Assembly: GCF_035825295.1 (NCBI RefSeq)
Contig: NZ_JAYMGI010000002.1
Location: 1-64,000 of the forward strand
Source of the DNA: Actinacidiphila sp. DG2A-62
GTDB lineage: Bacteria; Actinomycetota; Actinomycetes; Streptomycetales; Streptomycetaceae
Reading direction: 5' to 3'
DNA: 64,000 bases
A model generated the notes under the pieces. It saw nothing but the letters and a program-made list of their open reading frames with translations. It did not search any database and was not told the origin of the DNA. Below, piece by piece: positions 5,645 through 46,918 of the stretch (the first letter of the stretch is position 1; every line of letters begins with the position of its first letter). Position numbers and translations under genes: made by a program.

Positions 5645-6529
5645 ATGATGCCCCGTATGGCGGCATACGTTGACCCACGCTTTCGTCCCACGCTCTGGCC
5701 GGGGACACCCGTACCCACGCCGGAGTTGGAGCCCGTACCCAAAGCACGAGCCGACGGCGACTGGATCGTCTGGGAGCCGCACGTACGAGGCACCCAAGAG
5801 ACCAGTCCGCTTCCGGAGGACTTCTACTTGCGTGAGTTCATGGAACTTGACCCCGCCGATCTCGACGGCGTGGCCACCTTGATGCGCACCTATGGACACC
5901 TGGGCGGCAGCATCACCACCGGCAGTTGGGACGTCGATGAATACGAGCGCCTCAAGGAGCTCACCGAGCGCGAGCACCCGCGACACGGTCCGTTCTGCCT
6001 GCATGGCGAACTGGCCACGCTCTACATCACGCAGGCCCAGGCGGCCATCACCACCTGGCTCGCCCTGCGGCGCAAAGGCGGACTCGACGCGCTCATCGAG
6101 CCCGAAGTCGGCGAGGAGCAGCTGGCGTACTGGCGTTCCCAGAACACACATCGGAACGAGGCATGGCCACGCGACCTGGGCCATCTGCGCGAACTCGTCC
6201 TGGACATCAAGATCGGCGACCTGGTGGCTGAGTTGAATGGCGCGCTAGAACCGTTCAGCATCGGCATCGGCAGCCTGACCGAGCGCTACCCCACCATCCT
6301 CTCGGTCGCCTTCCTGCAGCTCTACAACCACCTTGCCGAAGACGCCACGATCCGCGAATGCGCCAACGAGACCTGCCGTCGCCCCTTCGTACGCCAACGC
6401 GGACGCGCCGAGTACGGGCAAAACCGCACCAGTGGCGTCAAATACTGCACCCGGGAATGCGCCCGCGCCCAAGCCCAACGTGCCCTGCGCCGCCAGGCAC
6501 AAGACCAGCCAGCCCCGCAAGAAAGCTGA
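5645..6529 (+). CDS. Hypothetical protein with C-terminal CGNR-like zinc finger
   Basis: The protein is about 294 aa from the ATG at 5645 (other in-frame ATGs at 5648 and 5657). The C-terminus reads [20 protein letters not shown], then [19 protein letters not shown]. This is a four-Cys finger of the CGNR type often found at the end of actinobacterial regulators. The remainder ([20 protein letters not shown], then a helical [19 protein letters not shown] region) has no motif I recognise. It is divergent from the nuclease-like gene across a 73-bp gap, so the two probably share a control region. DNA or RNA binding through the finger is likely; function otherwise unknown. Confidence 0.6.
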
Positions 6530-6560
6530 GGCCAGCGGCACACGACGCTCACCGAGCTAA

Positions 6561-7450
6561 CAGCGGCTAACACAATGAGCTGAGTTGTCGGTGAGTGATG
6601 AGGCAGCAGGCGAGTTTGAGGAAGGCCTCGTGGATGTCGGCCCTTCGTTCCCAGCGGGTGCGGAGTCGTTTGAACCCGTGGAGCCAGGCGAAGGTGCGTT
6701 CCACGACCCAGCGGTAGGTTCCCAGGCCGGTGCCGTGCCTGGTTCCCCGGCGGGCGATGGCCGGCACGATGCGGCGGGCGCGGACCTGGTCGCGGTAGAC
6801 GTCGTGGTCGTAGCCGCGGTCGGCGAACAGCGAGTCGGGCTTGCGGCGCGGGCGGCCACGTCGGCCGCGCACCGGCGGAACCGCGTCGAGCAGTGGCAGG
6901 AGCTGGGTGACGTCATTGCGGTTGCCGCCAGTGAGCAGCACTGCCAGCGGGGTGCCGTGCCCGTCGGTGATCAGGTGGTGTTTCGAGCCCGCCCGGCCTC
7001 GGTCGACCGGCGACGGGCCCGTCGCGAGCCCCCTTTAACGCCCTGACGTGCGAAGAGTCCACCACGCATCGTGACCAGTCCAGGCGCGAGGCCGCGTTGA
7101 GCTCGGCGAGCAGGACCTCGTGAAGACGCTGCCAGACTCCAGCCTCGTTCCAGTCCCGTAGCCGCCGCCAGCACGTCATCCCTGAGCCGAAGCCCAGCTC
7201 CTTGGGCAGGTACTCCCACTGCACCCCGGTATGCAGCACGTACAAGATCCCGCACAGCACATCCCGGTCCGGCACCGGCCTGCGGCCCGGATACCGAAAC
7301 CGCCGCTCCCGCCTCGGCAACAGCGGCTCGATCCGCTGCCACAAGTCATCCGACACCTTCCACGGCTCAGCACTCACACCAAACCGAACGCGCAACAACC
7401 ACCCTGGACAGGGCCACCAGGACCGAACCACCTCATTGTGTTAGCCGCTG
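6561..7450. mobile_element. IS5-family insertion sequence with 19-bp inverted repeats
   Basis: Perfect terminal inverted repeats CAGCGGCTAACACAATGAG lie at 6561-6579 and, in reverse, at 7432-7450. They are flanked on both sides by TAA (6558-6560 and 7451-7453), which fits the 3-bp TNA target duplication of the IS5 family. The 890-bp element holds one transposase on the minus strand. It sits immediately downstream of the zinc-finger gene and directly abuts the next IS. Confidence 0.85.
6567..7377 (-). pseudogene. IS5-family DDE transposase, frameshifted
   Basis: The first part (GTG at 7377, VSAEPWKVSDDLWQRIEPLLP) carries the IS5 N-terminal domain and the first catalytic aspartate in CVVDSSHVRALKG. 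The second part continues in another frame through RAGSKHHLITDGHGTPL, LLTGGNRNDVTQLLPLLDA, ADRGYDHDVYR (second Asp) and YRWVVERTFAWLH (Glu). The break is at the G5 run (forward C5, 7029-7033). The frame change needed is +1 or -2 rather than the -1 slip known for some IS5 relatives, so an indel is more likely than programmed frameshifting. Confidence 0.75.
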
Positions 7451-7566
7451 TAAGAGCTGTCCCGTAACCGCTTGTCGAGCCGCCGAGCGACAGGCCCGGC
7501 GGCGACCGGTCGACCTCGCCCGATATCCACGCGACTCCAGCCCGGAGCCCGTGGCAGCCTGCGGAC

Positions 7567-7924
7567 ATGCCAGAGCTGCGAGAACACGCAGGCCGTCACT
7601 ACGCCGTGCAGTTCCACTACTCCTTGCCCGACGACGCCTGGTGCGTGGAGCTAAGCGAAGCCGTCCGCGCCGGCCGTGTGGACCGAGATCCCCAACGCCG
7701 CGACCCACATGCCCGGAGCCGCCTTCCTCGTGGCGGTGATTCCCGACGAGGACCCGGACTTGGAGCCGTCCGTCCATTTCCACAGCCACGACGAGCACGT
7801 CATCCCGTACGAGATCGTGCGCTGGTTCATGAAGCAGGTGGCCGAACAGGTGGAGCAGTGCCGGGCCGCACTGACACACGGGGGGTCCCGAAGCGGTGGG
7901 ATGATCTTGCGGTGGCTGGTGTGA
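7567..7924 (+). pseudogene. Small hypothetical protein, frameshifted
   Basis: The ORF starts MPELREHAGRHYAVQFHYSL and must change frame near 7655 to continue as PAVWTEIPNAATHMPGAAFL, FHSHDEHVIPYEIVRWFMKQ and VAEQVEQCRAALTHGG. The C-terminal residues then run straight into the IS at about 7880. It looks like a ~115-aa conserved actinobacterial protein of unknown function that was cut or captured by the element. No catalytic motif is visible. Confidence 0.45.
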
Positions 7925-8336
7925 TCACGGCGTCGGAGCCGTCCTCGATAGCCCCGTTCACCGGGCTGAGCCCCCGCGACTTCCGCAAGCTGACCACGAT
8001 GCTGCATCGTGAGGGCGCTAACGCGGGCCGCCCCGGCCGGCCATGGGGCCTGCCCTTGGAGGACCGGGTCCTGCTGGTCGCCGCCTACTGGCGTACCAAC
8101 CTGACGCTGCGACAGCTCGCGCCGCTGTTCGGGGTGTCCAAGTCGGCGGCCAACCGCATCATCGACCACATCGGCCCACAGCTCGCGCTCAAGCCGCGAC
8201 AACGCTTCCGCAAGGGCACCGTGCTGATCGTGGACGGCACCCTCGTGCCCACCCGCGACCACACGATCGCCGAGCAGTCCAAGAACTACCGGTACTCCAC
8301 CAACCACCAGGTGGTCATCGACGCCGACACCCGCCT
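7921..8336 (+). pseudogene. IS5-type transposase, 5' part (interrupted)
   Basis: The product starts VITASEPSSIAPFTGLSPRD and has a helix-turn-helix (LTLRQLAPLFGVSKSAANRI) and the first DDE aspartate in VLIVDGTLVPTRDH. It reaches NHQVVIDADTRL at 8336, where another IS begins. The rest of the same protein resumes at 9237. A diverged fragment of the same transposase family lies at 46.9-47.1 kb. Confidence 0.75.
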
Positions 8337-9236
8337 AGGGCGTTTCTTTCGGATCATCGTGCTGACCAGATGAGGATGGCGGCGAGGTGGAGTCCGGCGA
8401 GGTAGATGGTTGCGGTCTTGTCGTAGCGGGTGGCCAGGCCGCGCCATTGCTTGAGCTTGTTGATGCACCGCTCGACGGTGTTGCGCTGCTTGTATGCCCG
8501 GCGGTGGAAGGCCGGCGGGCGGCCGCCGCGACTGCCGCGCCGCTTGCGGTTCGCCGCCTGGTCGGCGGGCTGCGGGATCACCGCCCGGATCTTCCGCTGC
8601 CGCAGGTGGAGGCGGATCGCCCGGGACGAGTAAGCCTTGTCGGCCAGGACTGCGTCCGGTGTGATTCTGGGGCGGCCGGTCCGTCTGGGCACCCGTAACC
8701 GGGCCATGACCTGCCCGAACGCGGGGGCGTCGCCTGCCTGGCCCGGCGTGAGCACGAATGCGAGTGGCCGGCACCGGCCGTCCGCGGCGAGGTGGATCTT
8801 GGTGGTCAGCCCGCCGCGGGACCGTCCGAGGGCATGGTCGTCCGGCTCGCCTGCCGGAGCCCCTTTTGACGGGCCCCGGCGGCGTGCTGATGAGCGCGGA
8901 CGACGGTGGAATCGACCGCGACGACCCATTCGAGGTCGCCTTCGGCGTCGGCCTGCGCGAGCAGGGCGGTGAAGACCTTCTCCCAGGTGCCGTCGGCCGC
9001 CCACATCCGCAGCCGGTTGTGGGCGCCCTTCCACGACCCGAAATGCCCGGGCAGGTCCGCCCACGGCGTGCCGGTGCGGTACTTGTAGGCGATCGCATCG
9101 ATCACCTGCCGGTGATCACGCCAACGCCCACCCCGCCGAGGGGTCCGATCCGGCAGCAACGGCTCGATACGCGCCCACTGGGCGTCGGTCAACGACACAC
9201 CAGACCAACGATCCGATGATCCGAAAGACACGCCCT
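8337..9236. mobile_element. IS5-family element nested inside another IS
   Basis: Near-perfect ends AGGGCGTTTCTTTCGGATCA (8337 on) and its inverse finishing CGCCCT at 9236 differ at one position over 23. The element is 900 bp and is inserted in the coding sequence of the outer transposase. A clear target duplication was not found. It is the youngest event in this cluster because it interrupts the other element. Confidence 0.82.
8354..9198 (-). CDS. IS5-family transposase, two frames joined by a likely -1 slip
   Basis: Frame one (GTG 9198, VSLTDAQWARIEPLLPDRT) holds the N-terminal domain and the first Asp in VVAVDSTVVRAHQHAAG. Frame two continues GEPDDHALGRSRGGLTTKIH, then TPDAVLADKAYSSRAIRLHL (second Asp) and YKQRNTVERCINKLKQWRGL (Glu), ending at 8354. 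The frames meet at CAA AAG GGG (minus strand, about 8863-8871), where A_AAG_GGG is a standard -1 slippery heptamer. A -1 slip gives exactly the needed frame, so this transposase may be intact and made by programmed frameshifting. Confidence 0.75.
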
Positions 9237-9578
9237 GTCGTCGCCATTGGCAAGCCCCTTCCCGGCAACCGGAACGACTGCAAGGCATGGGAGGAATCCG
9301 GCGCCAAGGACGCGGTCGGCCGGACCGCAACGATCGCTGACGGCGGCTACCCGAGCACGGGCCTGGTCATCCCGCACCGCCGGCCACGCGGCGGCGAGCT
9401 CACCGAATGGCAGGCCGAGCACAACCGCGAACATAAGCAGGTCCGTGCCCGCGTCGAGCACGTCTTCGCCCGGATGAAGACTTGGAAGATCCTCCGCGAC
9501 TGCCGCCTCAAGGGCGAGGGTGTCCACCACGCCATGCTCGGCATCGCCCGCCTGCATAACCTCCTCCAGGCCGCCTGA
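9237..9578 (+). pseudogene. IS5-type transposase, 3' part (interrupted)
   Basis: This is the continuation of the outer transposase after the nested IS: VVAIGKPLPGNRNDCKAWEE, ATIADGGYPSTGLVIPHR (second catalytic Asp), and VRARVEHVFARMKTWKILRD with the final Glu, ending LLQAA. Joined to the piece ending at 8336 it would make a ~265-aa DDE_Tnp_4 transposase. Confidence 0.75.
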
Positions 9579-9911
9579 GGCCAACGACCACCGAGCATCG
9601 ACCCACGTCCGAGACTCCCGAAGATCAATTACGGGACAGCCCTTAGGCATATGCCAATAACGACATGGCCCCCGAAGGCGGAGGCCGAGCCGTAGGGCAC
9701 CCCGGGCGGTACCGACAGCCGTACCTAGAGAGATTGCCCCTCGGCGCCTGCCGGCGTACGGCGCCGCCCACTCGATCTGGCAGCCCTGTAGACCACGAAA
9801 CGAGTAGCAGAGGAAGCCGTCGCGGGCAGCGGTACGCAGGAACAGGGTGGGGGCCGCAGTGAGGGTGTGGGACACCTGGGTACCGACAGCGGTGTGTGAG
9901 AGGAGCGGGCC

Positions 9912-10465
9912 TTGGGTGAGATCAATGACGGTCTGGAGCGGGCTTTGCGTACCCGGCCGCTGCCGGGCAGTGTCACAGCCCGGCTGGGCTTCCTGCTCAG
10001 GTTGGAGAAGGGCTCCACGAAGAGGCTGGCGGGGGTTCTGGGGGTCTCGCAGCGGACCGTGCAGCGGTGGGTCACGCCTGGCCCGGGGCGGCGCCCGCCA
10101 GGCGCGGTACAGAGGCGCGTGATCGAGGACGTCGTCCGGGCGCGGTGGCAGCCCCGGATTCGCGAGCGGTTGCGGGTGCGGGCCGAGGAGCGCGGCTTGT
10201 CCGTGCACGCCCGGGCCCGGTTCGGGTTCGCCTCCGCGGCCGGTTCCTCCGACGACCCCGCCGGCGGCTGATCACCCAGCACCTGTCCGGTGCGGTCGCG
10301 CGGGAGCTGTTCGCCGCCCGGGACGCCGGCGCCAGTGAGGCGCAGCAGATGGTCATCCTGGCCCGGGCACTGGGGCACGCCTACTTCCGCGACGGTGAGA
10401 CGCGGGCCCACGGGCTTCGAGTGGCCTTCTGCGACGTGGAGTTCGCCGACTTCGCCGTCGGCTGA
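9912..10465 (+). pseudogene. tpg: Telomere terminal protein Tpg homologue, single frameshift
   Basis: The TTG start at 9912 follows GAGAGGAG. The sequence (EINDGLERALRTRPLPGSV, LLRLEKGSTKRLAGVLGVSQ, RTVQRWVTPGPGRRPP, HARARFGFASAAGSSDDP, LITQHLSGAVARELFAAR, RAHGLRVAFCDVEFADF) follows Streptomyces Tpg along its length (~184 aa). Tpg caps and primes replication of linear chromosome or plasmid ends and is covalently attached to the telomere. The N-terminal third contains the helix-turn-helix. The frame breaks at C4 10257-10260; one more C joins both halves. No tap gene is visible beside it, although tap and tpg normally form a pair. Its presence suggests a chromosome arm or an integrated linear plasmid. 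Confidence 0.82.
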
Positions 10466-10508
10466 CCCGGCCCTCCCCCGTACGAGGGCGAGTGTGGGGT
10501 GCCGGGGG

Positions 10509-42717: not shown

Positions 42718-43452
42718 TCACAAGGGGGGCTGCGTCGGCGGGCAGACGGGGGCGCGGGACGGCTCGGGCGCCGGCGCGGTGAACGGCAGGGCGTAGAGGA
42801 CGAAGTGGACGCCGAGGGCCAGCACGGCGAGCGCTTCGAGCGCGGACAGGACCAGCAGGGCCGCGCGGCCCGGCGCGTCGGTCCAGTAGCCGACCAGCGC
42901 GGCCAGCGGCACCGCGCAGAACGCGCCGAGGTCGACCAGGCACTGGACGGCCTTGCGCGAGCGGCGGCGTGCGTCGCCGCGGTGCGCGGTCTCCCAGCCG
43001 AAGACCGCTCCCGCGCCGGGACCGGCCAGTTCACCCAGCCGGGGGGCCAGCTCCGTGCGGACATAGCGCCCGATCGCCGAGATCTTCTCGTCGTTGACCA
43101 GGTACGTCCAGCCCAGCACCACGCACACCGGGGGAAGCGCGAGCAGCATCGTCGCCCGCGCGGCCTCCAGCGACGCCGCCGCGACTCCGGCGACGGCCGC
43201 GAGCGTCACGTACAGGAGGTTGTCGCGGAAGCCGATGCGCGCCCGCTGCTCCTCCTTGATGCTCTGGTACTCCGCGATCAGCAACTGCCCCACCCCGACC
43301 AGCGGTTCCCGCTCCCCCACCGCACGCTCCCTCCGCGCTACCGGCATGGCCATGTCCCGCACCGGTTCATGCCCGGACAGCGCCCCGATGAGTCCGGCAG
43401 AGGCGTACAGCGTGCCGGCCGCGCGGGTTCGCCGCGGGCCGCGCGCGCTCAC
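42718..43452 (-). CDS. Four-helix membrane protein coupled to the NLR gene
   Basis: This 244-aa protein starts at a GTG that overlaps the NLR stop (GTGA at 43449-43452), so the two are made together. A short N-terminal region (LIAEYQSIKEEQRARIGFRD) precedes two helix pairs: NLLYVTLAAVAGVAAASLEA with ATMLLALPPVCVVLGWTYLV, and CLVDLGAFCAVPLAALVGYW with AALLVLSALEALAVLALGVH. The loop between them contains VRTELAPRLGELAGPGAGAV. No enzyme motif is visible. It may be an effector or anchor for the NLR; this is inferred from coupling only. Confidence 0.65.
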   Translation of the reverse strand: MSARGPRRTRAAGTLYASAGLIGALSGHEPVRDMAMPVARRERAVGEREPLVGVGQLLIAEYQSIKEEQRARIGFRDNLLYVTLAAVAGVAAASLEAARATMLLALPPVCVVLGWTYLVNDEKISAIGRYVRTELAPRLGELAGPGAGAVFGWETAHRGDARRRSRKAVQCLVDLGAFCAVPLAALVGYWTDAPGRAALLVLSALEALAVLALGVHFVLYALPFTAPAPEPSRAPVCPPTQPPL

Positions 43453-45835
43453 GGCGAGGGGTCGGCCCCTCGGCCGTCGATCAGCGCCGCCACGTCGTCC
43501 GCCTCGACGTCGCCGACGTCCTCGAAGATCTCCAGCGCCCGTTCCCAGCTGCCGCGCGCCGCCTCGCGGTCGCCGAGCGCGGTCAGCACGACGCCGAGCC
43601 GGTGCAGCGCCCGCGCCTCGCCGCGCAGGTGCCCGACCCGGCGGTGCACCGCCAGCGACTCGCGGTAGGAGGCTGCCGCCTGCCCCCACTCGCCGCGCTC
43701 CTCGTGCACCTCGCCGAGATTGTGCAGGGTCATCGCCTCGCCGAAGGCGTCGTCACCGACCGCACGGCGGATCTCCAGCGAGCGCCGGTAGCAGTCGGCG
43801 GCCCGGTCGGTGTCGCCGCAGACCATGTGGGCCGCGCCCATGTTGTTCAGGTCCGTCGCCTCGCCGCGCCGGTCCCCCAGCCGGCGGTGCGCCTCCAGCG
43901 CCTGCGTGTGGCAGACGAGCGCCTCGTCGTAGCGTTCCAGGTCGTCGTAGACGTCGCCGAGTCCGCTCAGCAGCCACGCCTCGGCCGGCCCGTCGCCTGC
44001 GGCGCGCGCGGCGTCGAGGCCGATGCGCTGCACCTCCAGCCACTCCGGCCACTGGCTGCGGCGCTGGAAGTACGACCTGAGCACGATCGGCACGCGCGAG
44101 CCGATCGTGAACAGGCCGGCGTCGGCGGCCTGCTGGGCGACGTCCAGGACGTTGGCGTACTCGGCGTCGAACCATGCGAGTGCGGCGTCCGCGTCGGCGA
44201 ACCGCGCCGGCCGCACGCCCTCGGGCGCCTCGATCGGCGCGAGCACCTGCTCCCGGCCGTCGTTGAGCGCGCGGTCGGCGTTCTCACCGGTCGCCACGTA
44301 CCAGGCCAGCAGGCGCTCCACCGCCCCTGCGGCCTCGGCGGGAGGCTCCTGCACGCGGCAGCGGTCCTGCGCGTACAGCCGCAGCAGGTCGTGGAAACGG
44401 AAGCGGCCGGGGGCGTCCTCCTCCAGCAGGTGGGCTTCGGTCAGCGCGTCGAGCAGGTCGCGGGCCTCGTCGCGCGGCACGCCGAGCACCGCCTCGGCCG
44501 CGGCGGCGCCGAACACCGGTCCCCGGTGCAGCCCGAGACGGCGGAACGCCCGCGCTTGCGACGGCGTGAGCTTGGCGTACGACCAGGAGAAGACGTGCCG
44601 CACCGCCGCGAACTCGTCCGAGCCGCGCGACAGCTGCGCCAGCCGGCCCTCCTCGGGCGCCAGTTCCGCCTCGACGTCGGCGAAGCCGAACGAGGGGCGC
44701 AGCGCGAGCCGCACCGCGGCGATGCGCAGCGCCAACGGGAGGCGTCCGCACAGTTCGGCGACACGCAGCGCGGCCGCGCGCTCGGCGGCGACCCGCTCCT
44801 CGCCCAGCACCCGGGCGAAGAACGCGAGCGACTCCTGCGGATCGAGCACGTCCAGCGTGAGCAGCCGGGCCCCGTCGCGGACCGCGAGCCCGGCCATCCG
44901 GCTGCGGCTGGTGACCACCACACAGCAGCCCGGGGCGCCCGGCAGCAGCGGCCGCACCTGCGCGGGGTCCTCGGCGTTGTCCAGGACGACCAGGACCCTG
45001 CGCCCCGCCAGGAGGCTGCGGTAGGACCGGGTCCTGGCGTCCAGGCTCGCGGGGACTTCGTGGGCCGGCCCCCGAGCAGCCGCAGCAGTTCCCCCAGGGC
45101 GCGGCGCGGCTTGGCCGCCGGAGTGGGCGCGTAGCCCTGGAGGTCGAGGTGGATCTGCCCGTCGGGGAACCGCTCGCTCGCCGCGTGCGCCCAGTGCACG
45201 GCCAGGGTCGTCTTGCCGACGCCCGGGGTGCCGTCGATGGCGGAGATCACCACGGTGGGCGTGGCCGCAGGGCTTTCGAGGGCGGTCACGGAGCTGTCGG
45301 AGGTCCCGGAATCGGCGGGGGCCCCGGGATCGGCCCCGGGATCGGCCCCGGGCGCCCGGGACGGAGCGTCCAGGGTGCGGAGGTCGTCCGCACGGCCGGT
45401 GAAGTCGGGGATGTCGGGCGGCAGCTGCCGGGGAGGAGGCGGGACGGCCGGCGGCGGGGGCTGCGCGGCGGCGTGGTAGTGGGTGTGGTGCTCGGCCGTG
45501 CCGGTCACGTCGCCGAGGAACAGGCCGTTGCCGAAGTCGACGTGGTCGCCGAGGTAGGAGGAAGCGGTCGGCGCGGGAGCGGCGTCCGCGAAGCCGTGCG
45601 CGCGCAGGTTCGCCGCCAGCGCTGACGCGAGCGCCGGGTCGGCCGCGAGGACGGCCCGCAGCCCGGCCGCCCACTCCTTGAGGGCGCGGACGCCGTCGGC
45701 CCCGGCGTCCGCGCCGTGCCCGGCCCCGTCACCGCCCTCGGGCAGCAGCGCCAGTTGCGCGCGGACCGCCCCGCCGCCCGGCTGCGCCGACGTCGCATCA
45801 AGCGCCCGGAGCAGCGCCTGCCAGTTCGCGTCCAT
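43449..45835 (-). pseudogene. NB-ARC/TPR NLR-like receptor with N-terminal GDHxDF motif, single frameshift
   Basis: ATG 45835. Residues 1-85 are a short helical domain, and residues 96-112 read GDHVDFGNGLFLGDVTG. A proline-rich linker follows, then NB-ARC with Walker A GTPGVGKTT (202-210), QIHLDLQGYAPTPAAK, Walker B RRVLVVLDNAEDP, sensor VVVTSRSRMAGL and GRLPLALRIAA. Then come a winged helix (FSWSYAKLTPSQARAFRRLG) and about six TPRs (LSGLGDVYDDLERYDEALVC; LNNMGAAHMVCGDTDRAADC). The frame breaks in the G/C run at forward 45062-45073 (one base short). NLR/STAND proteins oligomerise on sensing a ligand and switch on an effector. Confidence 0.75.
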
Positions 45836-46050
45836 CCGGCCCCCCTGTGCGGTACGGCGCGGCGTACGGGATCTGCCGCGGCCCGCTCCAGCCTACGGCT
45901 CGGGCACCTCGTCCGACGTACTGTCAGCACAGCCCGGGCGGCGGCGGTTTATCGTGGGACGAGGCCCTCGGCACGAGCGGGCACGAGCCCCCTGGCCGAA
46001 CAAGCCCGCAGGCCGGGAAGCCGGTAGGCCGGAACACGGGAGCGACGCAC
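45836..46050. promoter_or_regulatory. Divergent control region between NLR and phosphorylase genes
   Basis: This 215-bp gap lies between the two starts. It must hold both promoters, which allows shared control. I could not assign -35/-10 boxes or an operator with confidence. Confidence 0.4.
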
Positions 46051-46918
46051 ATGACGGCTCGGCACAGCGGAACCGCGGTGGTGCTGACGGCGCTTCCCGT
46101 CGAGTACCGAGCCGTGCGCGCGGCTCTCGGCCCCACCACGAAGCGGCAGCACCCCTCGGGGACGGTCTTCGCGGCGGGGACGCTGCCCGGCACGGACTGG
46201 GAGATCCTGCTGGCCAGGGTCGGCGAGGGCAACCTGCGGGCAGCCGTGATCACCGAGCGCGCCCGCGACTGGCTCGCGCCCGACGCGCTGTTCTTCGTCG
46301 GGGTGGCAGGAGGCCTCGCGTCCGACGTACGGCTCGGCGACGTCGTCGTGGCCACCCGCATCCACCACGTCCATCCCGGCAAGGAGACCGCGGACGGCTT
46401 CCTGGCCCGCCCGGTCCCCGGGGCAGTCTCCCACCTGCTGGAGCAGAACGCCTGGCATGCGCTGAGCGACGACGCCTGGCACGGCGGGCCCGACCCGGCG
46501 CCCGCCGTGCACTTCAAGCCGCTCGCGGCGGGCGAGGTGGTGCTCAACGCCGCGGACAGCCCGCTGCGGGAGCAGATCCGCTGGCACTACGGCGACGCAG
46601 CCGCCGTCGAGATGGAGAGCGCCGGGGTCGCCGCCGCGGCCGCGCTCACCCACGACCTGCACGTCCTGACCATCCGCGGCATCAGCGACCATGCCGACGG
46701 AGCCAAGGCCGCCGCCGATGCCGCCGGCTCCCAGCAGCGCGCCGCCGCCAACGCCGCGGCCGCCCTGCTGGCCCTCCTGCGCGCCCTCCCCCCTTCCGAC
46801 CTCCCCGCCGCGTCGAGCAGCGCCCGGCCCCCCCGCCTCCGGCGACCACATCGACTTCCGCCACGGTCTCTTCCTCGCCCCCGTCACCGGCAAGTCCACC
46901 CCGCCACCGGCCTCCTGA
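46051..46918 (+). CDS. Nucleoside phosphorylase/nucleosidase (PNP_UDP fold) with C-terminal GDHxDF motif
   Basis: ATG 46051, about 288 aa. It has the phosphorylase fold with TAVVLTALPVEYRAVRAALG, the phosphate/ribose loop FFVGVAGGLASDVRLGDVVV, the AAVEMESAGVAAAAAL ribose-binding motif and TIRGISDHADG. Residues 264-280 read GDHIDFRHGLFLAPVTG, nearly the same as the motif in the divergent NLR, then the protein ends KSTPPPAS. To reach this end the C7 run 46828-46834 must lose one C; as written the frame runs on without meaning. The enzyme would cleave nucleosides or nucleotides. With the shared motif it is a candidate effector of the NLR. Confidence 0.75.

Follow-up and report, generated by a model that had tools for sequence, protein, structure and literature searches.

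This study concerns a divergent gene pair in a stretch of 64,000 nucleotides from Actinacidiphila sp. DG2A-62 (contig NZ_JAYMGI010000002.1, positions 1 to 64,000; hereafter the window). An NB-ARC/TPR receptor gene, of the type here called NLR-A (43449..45835, minus strand), and a nucleosidase gene of the PNP/MTAN fold (domain at 46051..46824, plus strand) encode the same short motif, GDHVDFGNGLFLGDVTG on the N-terminal side of the receptor and GDHIDFRHGLFLAPVTG beyond the enzyme domain, with 12 of 17 residues identical. The data presented here show the motif pair and how it recurs across related loci, the matching of motif subtypes between partners, the conserved MTAN residues and a frequent third gene. 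We consider it probable that the activated receptor templates the enzyme tails into a prion-like assembly, switching on nucleoside or nucleotide cleavage. In Streptomyces relatives, a programmed +1 shift in the nucleosidase gene quite likely sets whether the enzyme receives the prion-like tag and answers to one NLR in trans, or is joined in cis to another NLR. The window represents the tag-only form.

A motif shared by receptor and nucleosidase

The receptor-side motif lies at 45500..45550 on the minus strand (residues 96-112 of the reading that starts at 45835) and the enzyme-side C-terminal motif at 46841..46891 on the plus strand. The two gene starts face away from each other across a divergent intergenic region (45836..46050), a layout also present in relatives. 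A profile of 18 columns, built solely from enzyme C-termini (23 distinct tails) and run in all six frames over 111 loci plus the window (112 sequences), gave the receptor copy of the window 30.7 bits; the enzyme copy scored 52.7 bits, and the maximum in reversed frames was 8.6 bits (stretches of at least 60 residues). At 20 bits or more there were 114 hits, 61 in the enzyme frames that had trained the profile and 53 in others by the script's test; 45 of these 53 fall outside the window copies, L021 and L031. Across the whole genome of the window (8.6 Mb, two contigs, completeness 95.57), a motif profile of 25 rows, two of which are the window pair, found the enzyme-side and receptor-side copies (E 1.0e-11 and 4.6e-11) as the sole two places up to E 1, and an exact DNA pattern for GDH[IVM]DF returned the same two. 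Chance similarity is ruled out as the origin of the motif by the reversed-frame maximum and the whole-genome profile search. A sequencing accident is likewise ruled out, because an enzyme 98% identical to that of the window and dozens of other relatives keep the motif. The motif sharing between NLR and phosphorylase, proposed in a sequence-only reading of this DNA, is therefore confirmed. When 20 motif-bearing enzymes are aligned, the linker is variable and the motif itself is kept.

The enzyme domain matches Pfam PNP_UDP_1 (1.6e-26), and its sequence relatives in the PDB are MTA/SAH nucleosidases (4x24, E 2.3e-24). The predicted fold of P0003, the 98%-identical relative, matches the MTAN structure 1zos (E 2.9e-20, PDB fold search), in agreement with the nucleoside-phosphorylase fold suggested earlier. 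The catalytic residues of E. coli MTAN are Glu12, Glu174 and Asp197; Glu12 and Asp197 are also named in the titles of matched PDB entries. Across 20 relatives, E18, E187, M188, E189 and D213 do not vary, and they correspond in alignment to MTAN residues, so that the PNP/UDP fold and the catalytic Glu and Asp residues of the MTAN type are both present. P0003 scores below the equivalog cut-off for housekeeping MTA/SAH nucleosidases (76.3 bits; 169 for NF004079) and matches the PADLOC 'PN-superfamily' effector (9.4e-15). The tail that carries the motif has block means of 47-57 in model confidence (pLDDT; P0003 model), that is, it is predicted to be disordered, as had been anticipated for this flank. 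On the receptor side, Pfam recognises NB-ARC (5.4e-06) and TPR_12 (3.6e-24) in the downstream piece.

Receptor and enzyme each contain one frame change in the window. The enzyme frame from 46051 reads past the motif in another frame after a run of seven C (C7; 46828..46834, plus strand), close to which it separates from the frame of the motif, and the receptor gene consists of two frames that meet between 45068 and 45107. In P0003 (288 residues; 98% identical to the window enzyme over the covered 90%) the motif is in frame at residues 264-280, and in the relative L112 the receptor is one frame at the region of the window's break. An enzyme ending with the motif at residues 264-280, as first read from this DNA, thus exists in the intact relative, whereas the window frame misses the motif after C7. 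Assembly indels and real mutations both fit these breaks. As a programmed shift site, C7 was rejected: no Shine-Dalgarno-like element was seen there, and P0003, a near relative, is in frame. It is possible that the locus is a decaying remnant with real frame-breaking mutations in both genes, and a neighbouring four-helix gene that is a single open frame throughout, unlike the receptor and the enzyme, would suit such a history. The completeness value in two contigs, however, fits uncorrected indels, and P0003 is intact.

Recurrence in related loci

Relatives were gathered in two ways. An enzyme search yielded 472 proteins, of which 120 were examined; 38 of these 120 fit the 18-residue tail pattern, 23 of them distinct. 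Named genomes were then scanned using 20 aligned enzymes that bear the motif; of at least 291 relatives, the 80 best were kept. The enzyme motif is present in 59 of these 80 loci, a proportion that does not reflect the frequency in nature, because the alignment used to retrieve them was made up of motif bearers. Of 200 genomes drawn from the family without selection, 31 contained an enzyme relative (E ≤ 1e-30), and the motif was present in 6 of the 30 loci read, counting the window.

In 41 of the 59 motif-bearing loci, a second copy of the motif lies within 2.6 kb on the opposite strand. Its frame is NLR-like in 39 of these 41 (at least 250 bits against the query NLRs), and the P-loop follows 48-62 residues later; the corresponding distance in the window NLR is 88 residues. 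Among the 21 enzymes without the motif, an opposite-strand motif is found in one (L057) and the four-helix protein in four. End signatures agree in all 43 receptor-enzyme pairs compared (the 41, the second pair of L084 and the window), eight being AK-AK and the other 35 neither. None of 5,000 shuffles equalled the similarity between true partners (p 2e-4, with relatedness left in). The proposed layout, with the motif on the N-terminal side of the NLR and at the C-terminus of the effector, accordingly recurs with matched subtypes. As to whether homologues keep motif and partner, the outcome is divided: enzymes without the motif exist, and most enzymes that have it also have an opposite-strand partner.

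The third gene encodes 244 residues in the window (42718..43452, minus strand) and overlaps the 3′ end of the receptor gene by 4 bases. Previously suggested to be a coupled four-helix membrane protein and a third part of the system, it proves to be a frequent neighbour, lying within 1.6 kb in 48 of the 59 motif-bearing loci. Of the loci fetched, 98 contain a homologue (a count that includes repeats of the same place), with 46-80% identity over the matched part, and 35 aligned homologues show 43-72% identity overall. The gene stands between receptor and enzyme, divergent from the enzyme, in most Streptomyces loci, and after the receptor in the window and L112. The AlphaFold2 model has four long helices, and a membrane role is suggested because these are hydrophobic. 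No Pfam, NCBIfam or PADLOC model matched the protein above cut-off, and the PDB gave no match by fold at E ≤ 0.001 or by sequence at E ≤ 1.

On the proposed mechanism, the sensor NLR would oligomerise on sensing an invader, its gathered motifs would template the enzyme tails, and the clustered enzyme would cut nucleosides or nucleotides, leading to growth stop or cell death. We infer oligomerisation, amyloid-type templating, activation by clustering, nucleotide loss and a membrane action of the third protein. Several observations weigh against templating. Both window genes are frame-broken, and the window copy may therefore be inactive. Two of the 41 pairs (L046, L061) have a break in the NLR frame, and 18 of the 59 motif enzymes have no opposite-strand motif within 2.6 kb upstream. 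A search of those 18 genomes and four others found, for 15 of the 18, a further motif in an open reading frame of at least 560 residues and, for three, none of this kind (E up to 0.1): L067 and L111 have no further motif, and L093 has one only in a frame of 319 residues. In L035, one of the 15, the second motif lies at the C-terminus of an ATPase-type protein and not at an NLR N-terminus. Nine loci were read; four contain distant receptor copies (L190, L195, L197, L203) with the P-loop 54-62 residues after the motif, and the remaining five are four enzyme tails and the L035 protein. In P0004 (G073, L112) the motif is internal to the nucleosidase chain, ahead of a C-terminal EAD2 domain. Lastly, a GPV proline is frequent in the second half of the enzyme motif in the 20-enzyme alignment; proline within a beta core would be unusual, and plain docking is therefore possible.

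The motif would then be a short docking element that joins receptor and enzyme tails in one-to-one binding or a small complex, with no amyloid formed. Conservation and subtype matching are equally expected of such an element, and it agrees with the internal placement in P0004 and with the 25-row motif alignment, where one D and one F are the sole invariant residues. We nevertheless find docking less likely. Both partners bear a sequence of identical type, not two complementary ones, and motif sharing between the receptor N-terminus and the effector C-terminus of adjacent genes is a recognised amyloid-signalling layout in bacteria and fungi (PMC7889193, PMC9815663; these and all other sources are cited from excerpts of their text).

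Additional architectures were observed around the motif. In L104 (1540-5304) it lies on the N-terminal side of a receptor that matches nSTAND_NTPase5, below the Pfam cut-off, and not NB-ARC; L197 resembles L104 after the motif. P0167, P0171 and P0184 (1600-1637 residues; named as SAV_2336 N-terminal domain-related proteins) combine a PNP domain with an NLR-A-like stretch after it, and the motif is internal to the chain, although its score in P0184 is just 10.3 bits. Multiple copies of the module with differing motif subtypes occur in one genome region in L074/L083, L079/L091, L057/L105 and L084. The NB-ARC/TPR part of NLR-A in L034 (2944-5346) resembles the regulator AfsR (NCBIfam 2.9e-98, 330 bits, well short of the cut-off of 1430).

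A second receptor in the +1 frame of relatives

Downstream of the stop codon that ends the motif frame, 46 of the 59 motif-bearing loci encode a second NLR, here NLR-B, at 47 sites (L084 has two). This count, like that of 13 sites given below, omits the window, L001, L002, L021 and L031, which are window repeats or partial. In L036, Pfam recognises NB-ARC (3.7e-13) and TPR_12 in NLR-B. The NLR-B frame is +1 at 47 of 47 sites and open through the motif DNA, which is read there in +1 and gives no hit with the motif profile. Past an FTGR-like mark, 42 of the 47 frames run for at least 634 residues, two (L050, L081) reach the contig end, and three (L073, the first site of L084, L088) are interrupted after 53-131 residues. 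No conserved start codon for NLR-B was found at the 47 sites. From the upstream stop to the NLR mark, 18 sites have no ATG, GTG or TTG at all, and 33 have none from the motif on; in L078 and L111 the mark arises by chance within the motif DNA, so that their start-codon lists end early.

Just upstream of the motif, GAG-NNN-CC(C/T) is found in frame at all 47 sites, preceded by GAG, CAG, AAG or CGG. The codon after CCY is CAT at 20 sites, CAA at 15, TTT at nine, and AAA, CTT and TTA at one each. In the same genes these six codons make up 1.5% of the codons of the enzyme part and 2.1% of the codons that follow proline. Synonymous codons offer a control: CAT accounts for 17% of His codons elsewhere in these genes and for 20 of 20 at the site, CAA for 12% elsewhere and 15 of 15 at the site, and TTT for 1% and nine of nine. 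The +1 frame is open at the shift codon in all 47. The relatives thus combine, as in prfB, a Shine-Dalgarno-like sequence, a spacer of 3 nucleotides, a slippery pyrimidine codon, a slow A-site codon and a downstream +1 frame. Homopolymer slippage at the shift site was rejected, since only short C runs were seen. The whole RGGAG-NNN-CCY-rare-codon element lies about 18-60 nucleotides upstream of the motif DNA (47 sites, L036 to L111). At the site upstream of 6787 in L083, TTA is the rare codon that follows the shift codon; its decoding depends on bldA in Streptomyces, and developmental control is possible there.

The element and the rare-codon set were chosen on the 47 sites, so that only loci outside this set provide a fair test. 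We searched 392 genomes of one genus and fetched 30 loci, which together with L116 and L118 made 32 read; 16 of the 32 fall below 90% in shared 12-mers, both against the first set and among themselves. NLR-B is present in 13 of these 16 (L116, L118 and loci within L146-L171), in all 13 in the +1 frame and with GAG-NNN-CCY. The next codon is one of the six in 12 of the 13, and CGA in the other. Among the 13 sites of the first set without NLR-B, the element is whole in three (L044, L077, L090), reduced to GAG-NNN-CCY with another next codon in three (L034, L101, L108) and absent in seven; L090 ends near a contig edge, and L077 holds an NLR-B fragment. The three held-out loci without NLR-B (L149, L151, L173) all have GAG-NNN-CCY, followed by a rare codon in L149 and L151. 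As the element is kept at some sites without NLR-B, it goes with NLR-B yet can outlast it.

Fusions of PNP and NLR in a single frame also exist in relatives. One is L057. A search with its first 330 residues retrieved 106 proteins, which include others, although some of the 106 are not NLR fusions. Judged by eye, the motif at the junction is gone in P0124-P0131 and P0163 and degenerate in P0132. P0138 retains it and shares one frame between it and the NLR, and the single frame of P0135 and P0162 corresponds to the +1 reading of other loci (also by eye). We take these proteins to be the fused product made permanent.

Without a shift, ribosomes might start NLR-B internally at a near-cognate codon that follows the Shine-Dalgarno-like GAGGAG, and no enzyme-NLR fusion would arise. 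The Shine-Dalgarno-like sequence is indeed present, a CAT after CCY makes the +1 codon ATN (20 of 47; ATG in three of 47), and some ATG, GTG or TTG lies in the open +1 stretch at 29 of 47 sites. Yet the +1 codon is AAG, AAC or TTC at 25 of 47, and the 18 sites noted above lack all three start codons over the whole open +1 stretch up to the NLR. Internal initiation needs neither CCY nor a rare zero-frame codon, and both are kept at 47 of 47; the single-frame fusions speak against it as well. We consider it improbable.

With a programmed +1 shift, frame 0 would yield the motif-tailed enzyme and the +1 frame an enzyme-NLR fusion without the motif. Part of the enzyme molecules would then be fused to NLR-B, one enzyme would be common to two receptors, and mixed oligomers would join both receptor inputs. 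The window copy has neither NLR-B nor the frameshift site.

Significance and relation to known systems

If the proposed mechanism is correct, prion-like signalling is tied to a nucleoside-cutting enzyme in bacteria as it is in fungi, which raises the question of a common immune logic. Should the frameshift in relatives be borne out, a phylum without the prfB site would possess a chromosomal +1 programmed frameshift, and two receptor inputs to one effector would become directly testable. The four-helix family, often next to the enzyme and without a model in the libraries searched, deserves a function. Among the matches listed in full-text searches of open-licence papers, none reported the motif, the frameshift or bacterial PNP effectors with amyloid motifs, and five stretches of the motif consensus gave no match in such papers.

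The arrangement of one motif on the N-terminal side of an NLR and at the C-terminus of an effector, in adjacent genes, is of the BASS type (bacterial amyloid signalling sequences), the enzyme motif being out of frame in the window and in frame in P0003. The motif may be one of the BASS families of Dyrka et al. 2020. It is not of the RHIM type (BASS3): a RHIM-type core reads V/I-Q-V/I-G, and the window and family motifs, compared by eye, are without it. In L110, an enzyme of the same family (PNP, 5947-6954) has a RHIM-like tail of the AVQNG type, GGVVYAVQNGSQTINSG, and adjoins an NLR (6951-10505) that bears a like motif, STVYAVQNGDQTVNNFF, at its start. Enzyme and NLR both carry this different tag, so tag and partner change together there, and tags appear to be exchanged as modules in this locus. 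RHIM-like enzyme tails of the AVQNG type were also seen in P0090, P0107, P0113 and P0122.

The excerpts of PMC7889193 name Bell, CHAT and TIR as effectors of bacterial amyloid signalling. BASS systems are described as adjacent NLR and Bell effector genes with a short motif in common, in filamentous actinobacteria (PMC7889193, PMC8086366, PMC12261475). The locus studied here resembles them in gene adjacency, motif placement and host group, and differs in that the effector has a PNP_UDP_1/MTAN fold and no Bell domain, and in its divergent pair with a third, four-helix gene. Fungal PNP_UDP effectors with PUASM or HRAM likewise combine a PNP-fold effector with a C-terminal motif common to a neighbouring NLR, and the motif of a fungal PNP effector forms prion-like foci when fused to GFP (PMC9815663). 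The PUASM pattern given there, FxGxGxQxxGxGxF, is absent by eye from the motif described here, the PUASM NLRs are of the NACHT or NACHT WD40 type, and no frameshift is described in the excerpts of that source, in contrast to the +1 shift predicted here in relatives. Effector-associated domain (EAD) systems with PNPase effectors in multicellular bacteria (PMC8195603) similarly use a small modular adaptor common to sensor and effector, and P0004 has both the motif and EAD2; the adaptor here differs in being an 18-residue motif in a tail predicted to be disordered. Detocs, whose PNP effector cleaves ATP, is also based on a PNP-domain immune enzyme, under two-component control there and an NLR here (PMC11249213).

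The excerpts of PMC12421855 report the prfB frameshift site in 0 of 2,658 Actinomycetota genomes, and +1 shifting at CCC has precedent in Listeria phages (PMC5009743). The predicted site shares with prfB the purine-rich Shine-Dalgarno-like sequence, the 3-nucleotide spacer, the pyrimidine slippery codon and the +1 shift. It differs in having CCY followed by a rare sense codon where prfB has CTT followed by TGA, and in the prediction of two useful products (PMC12421855).
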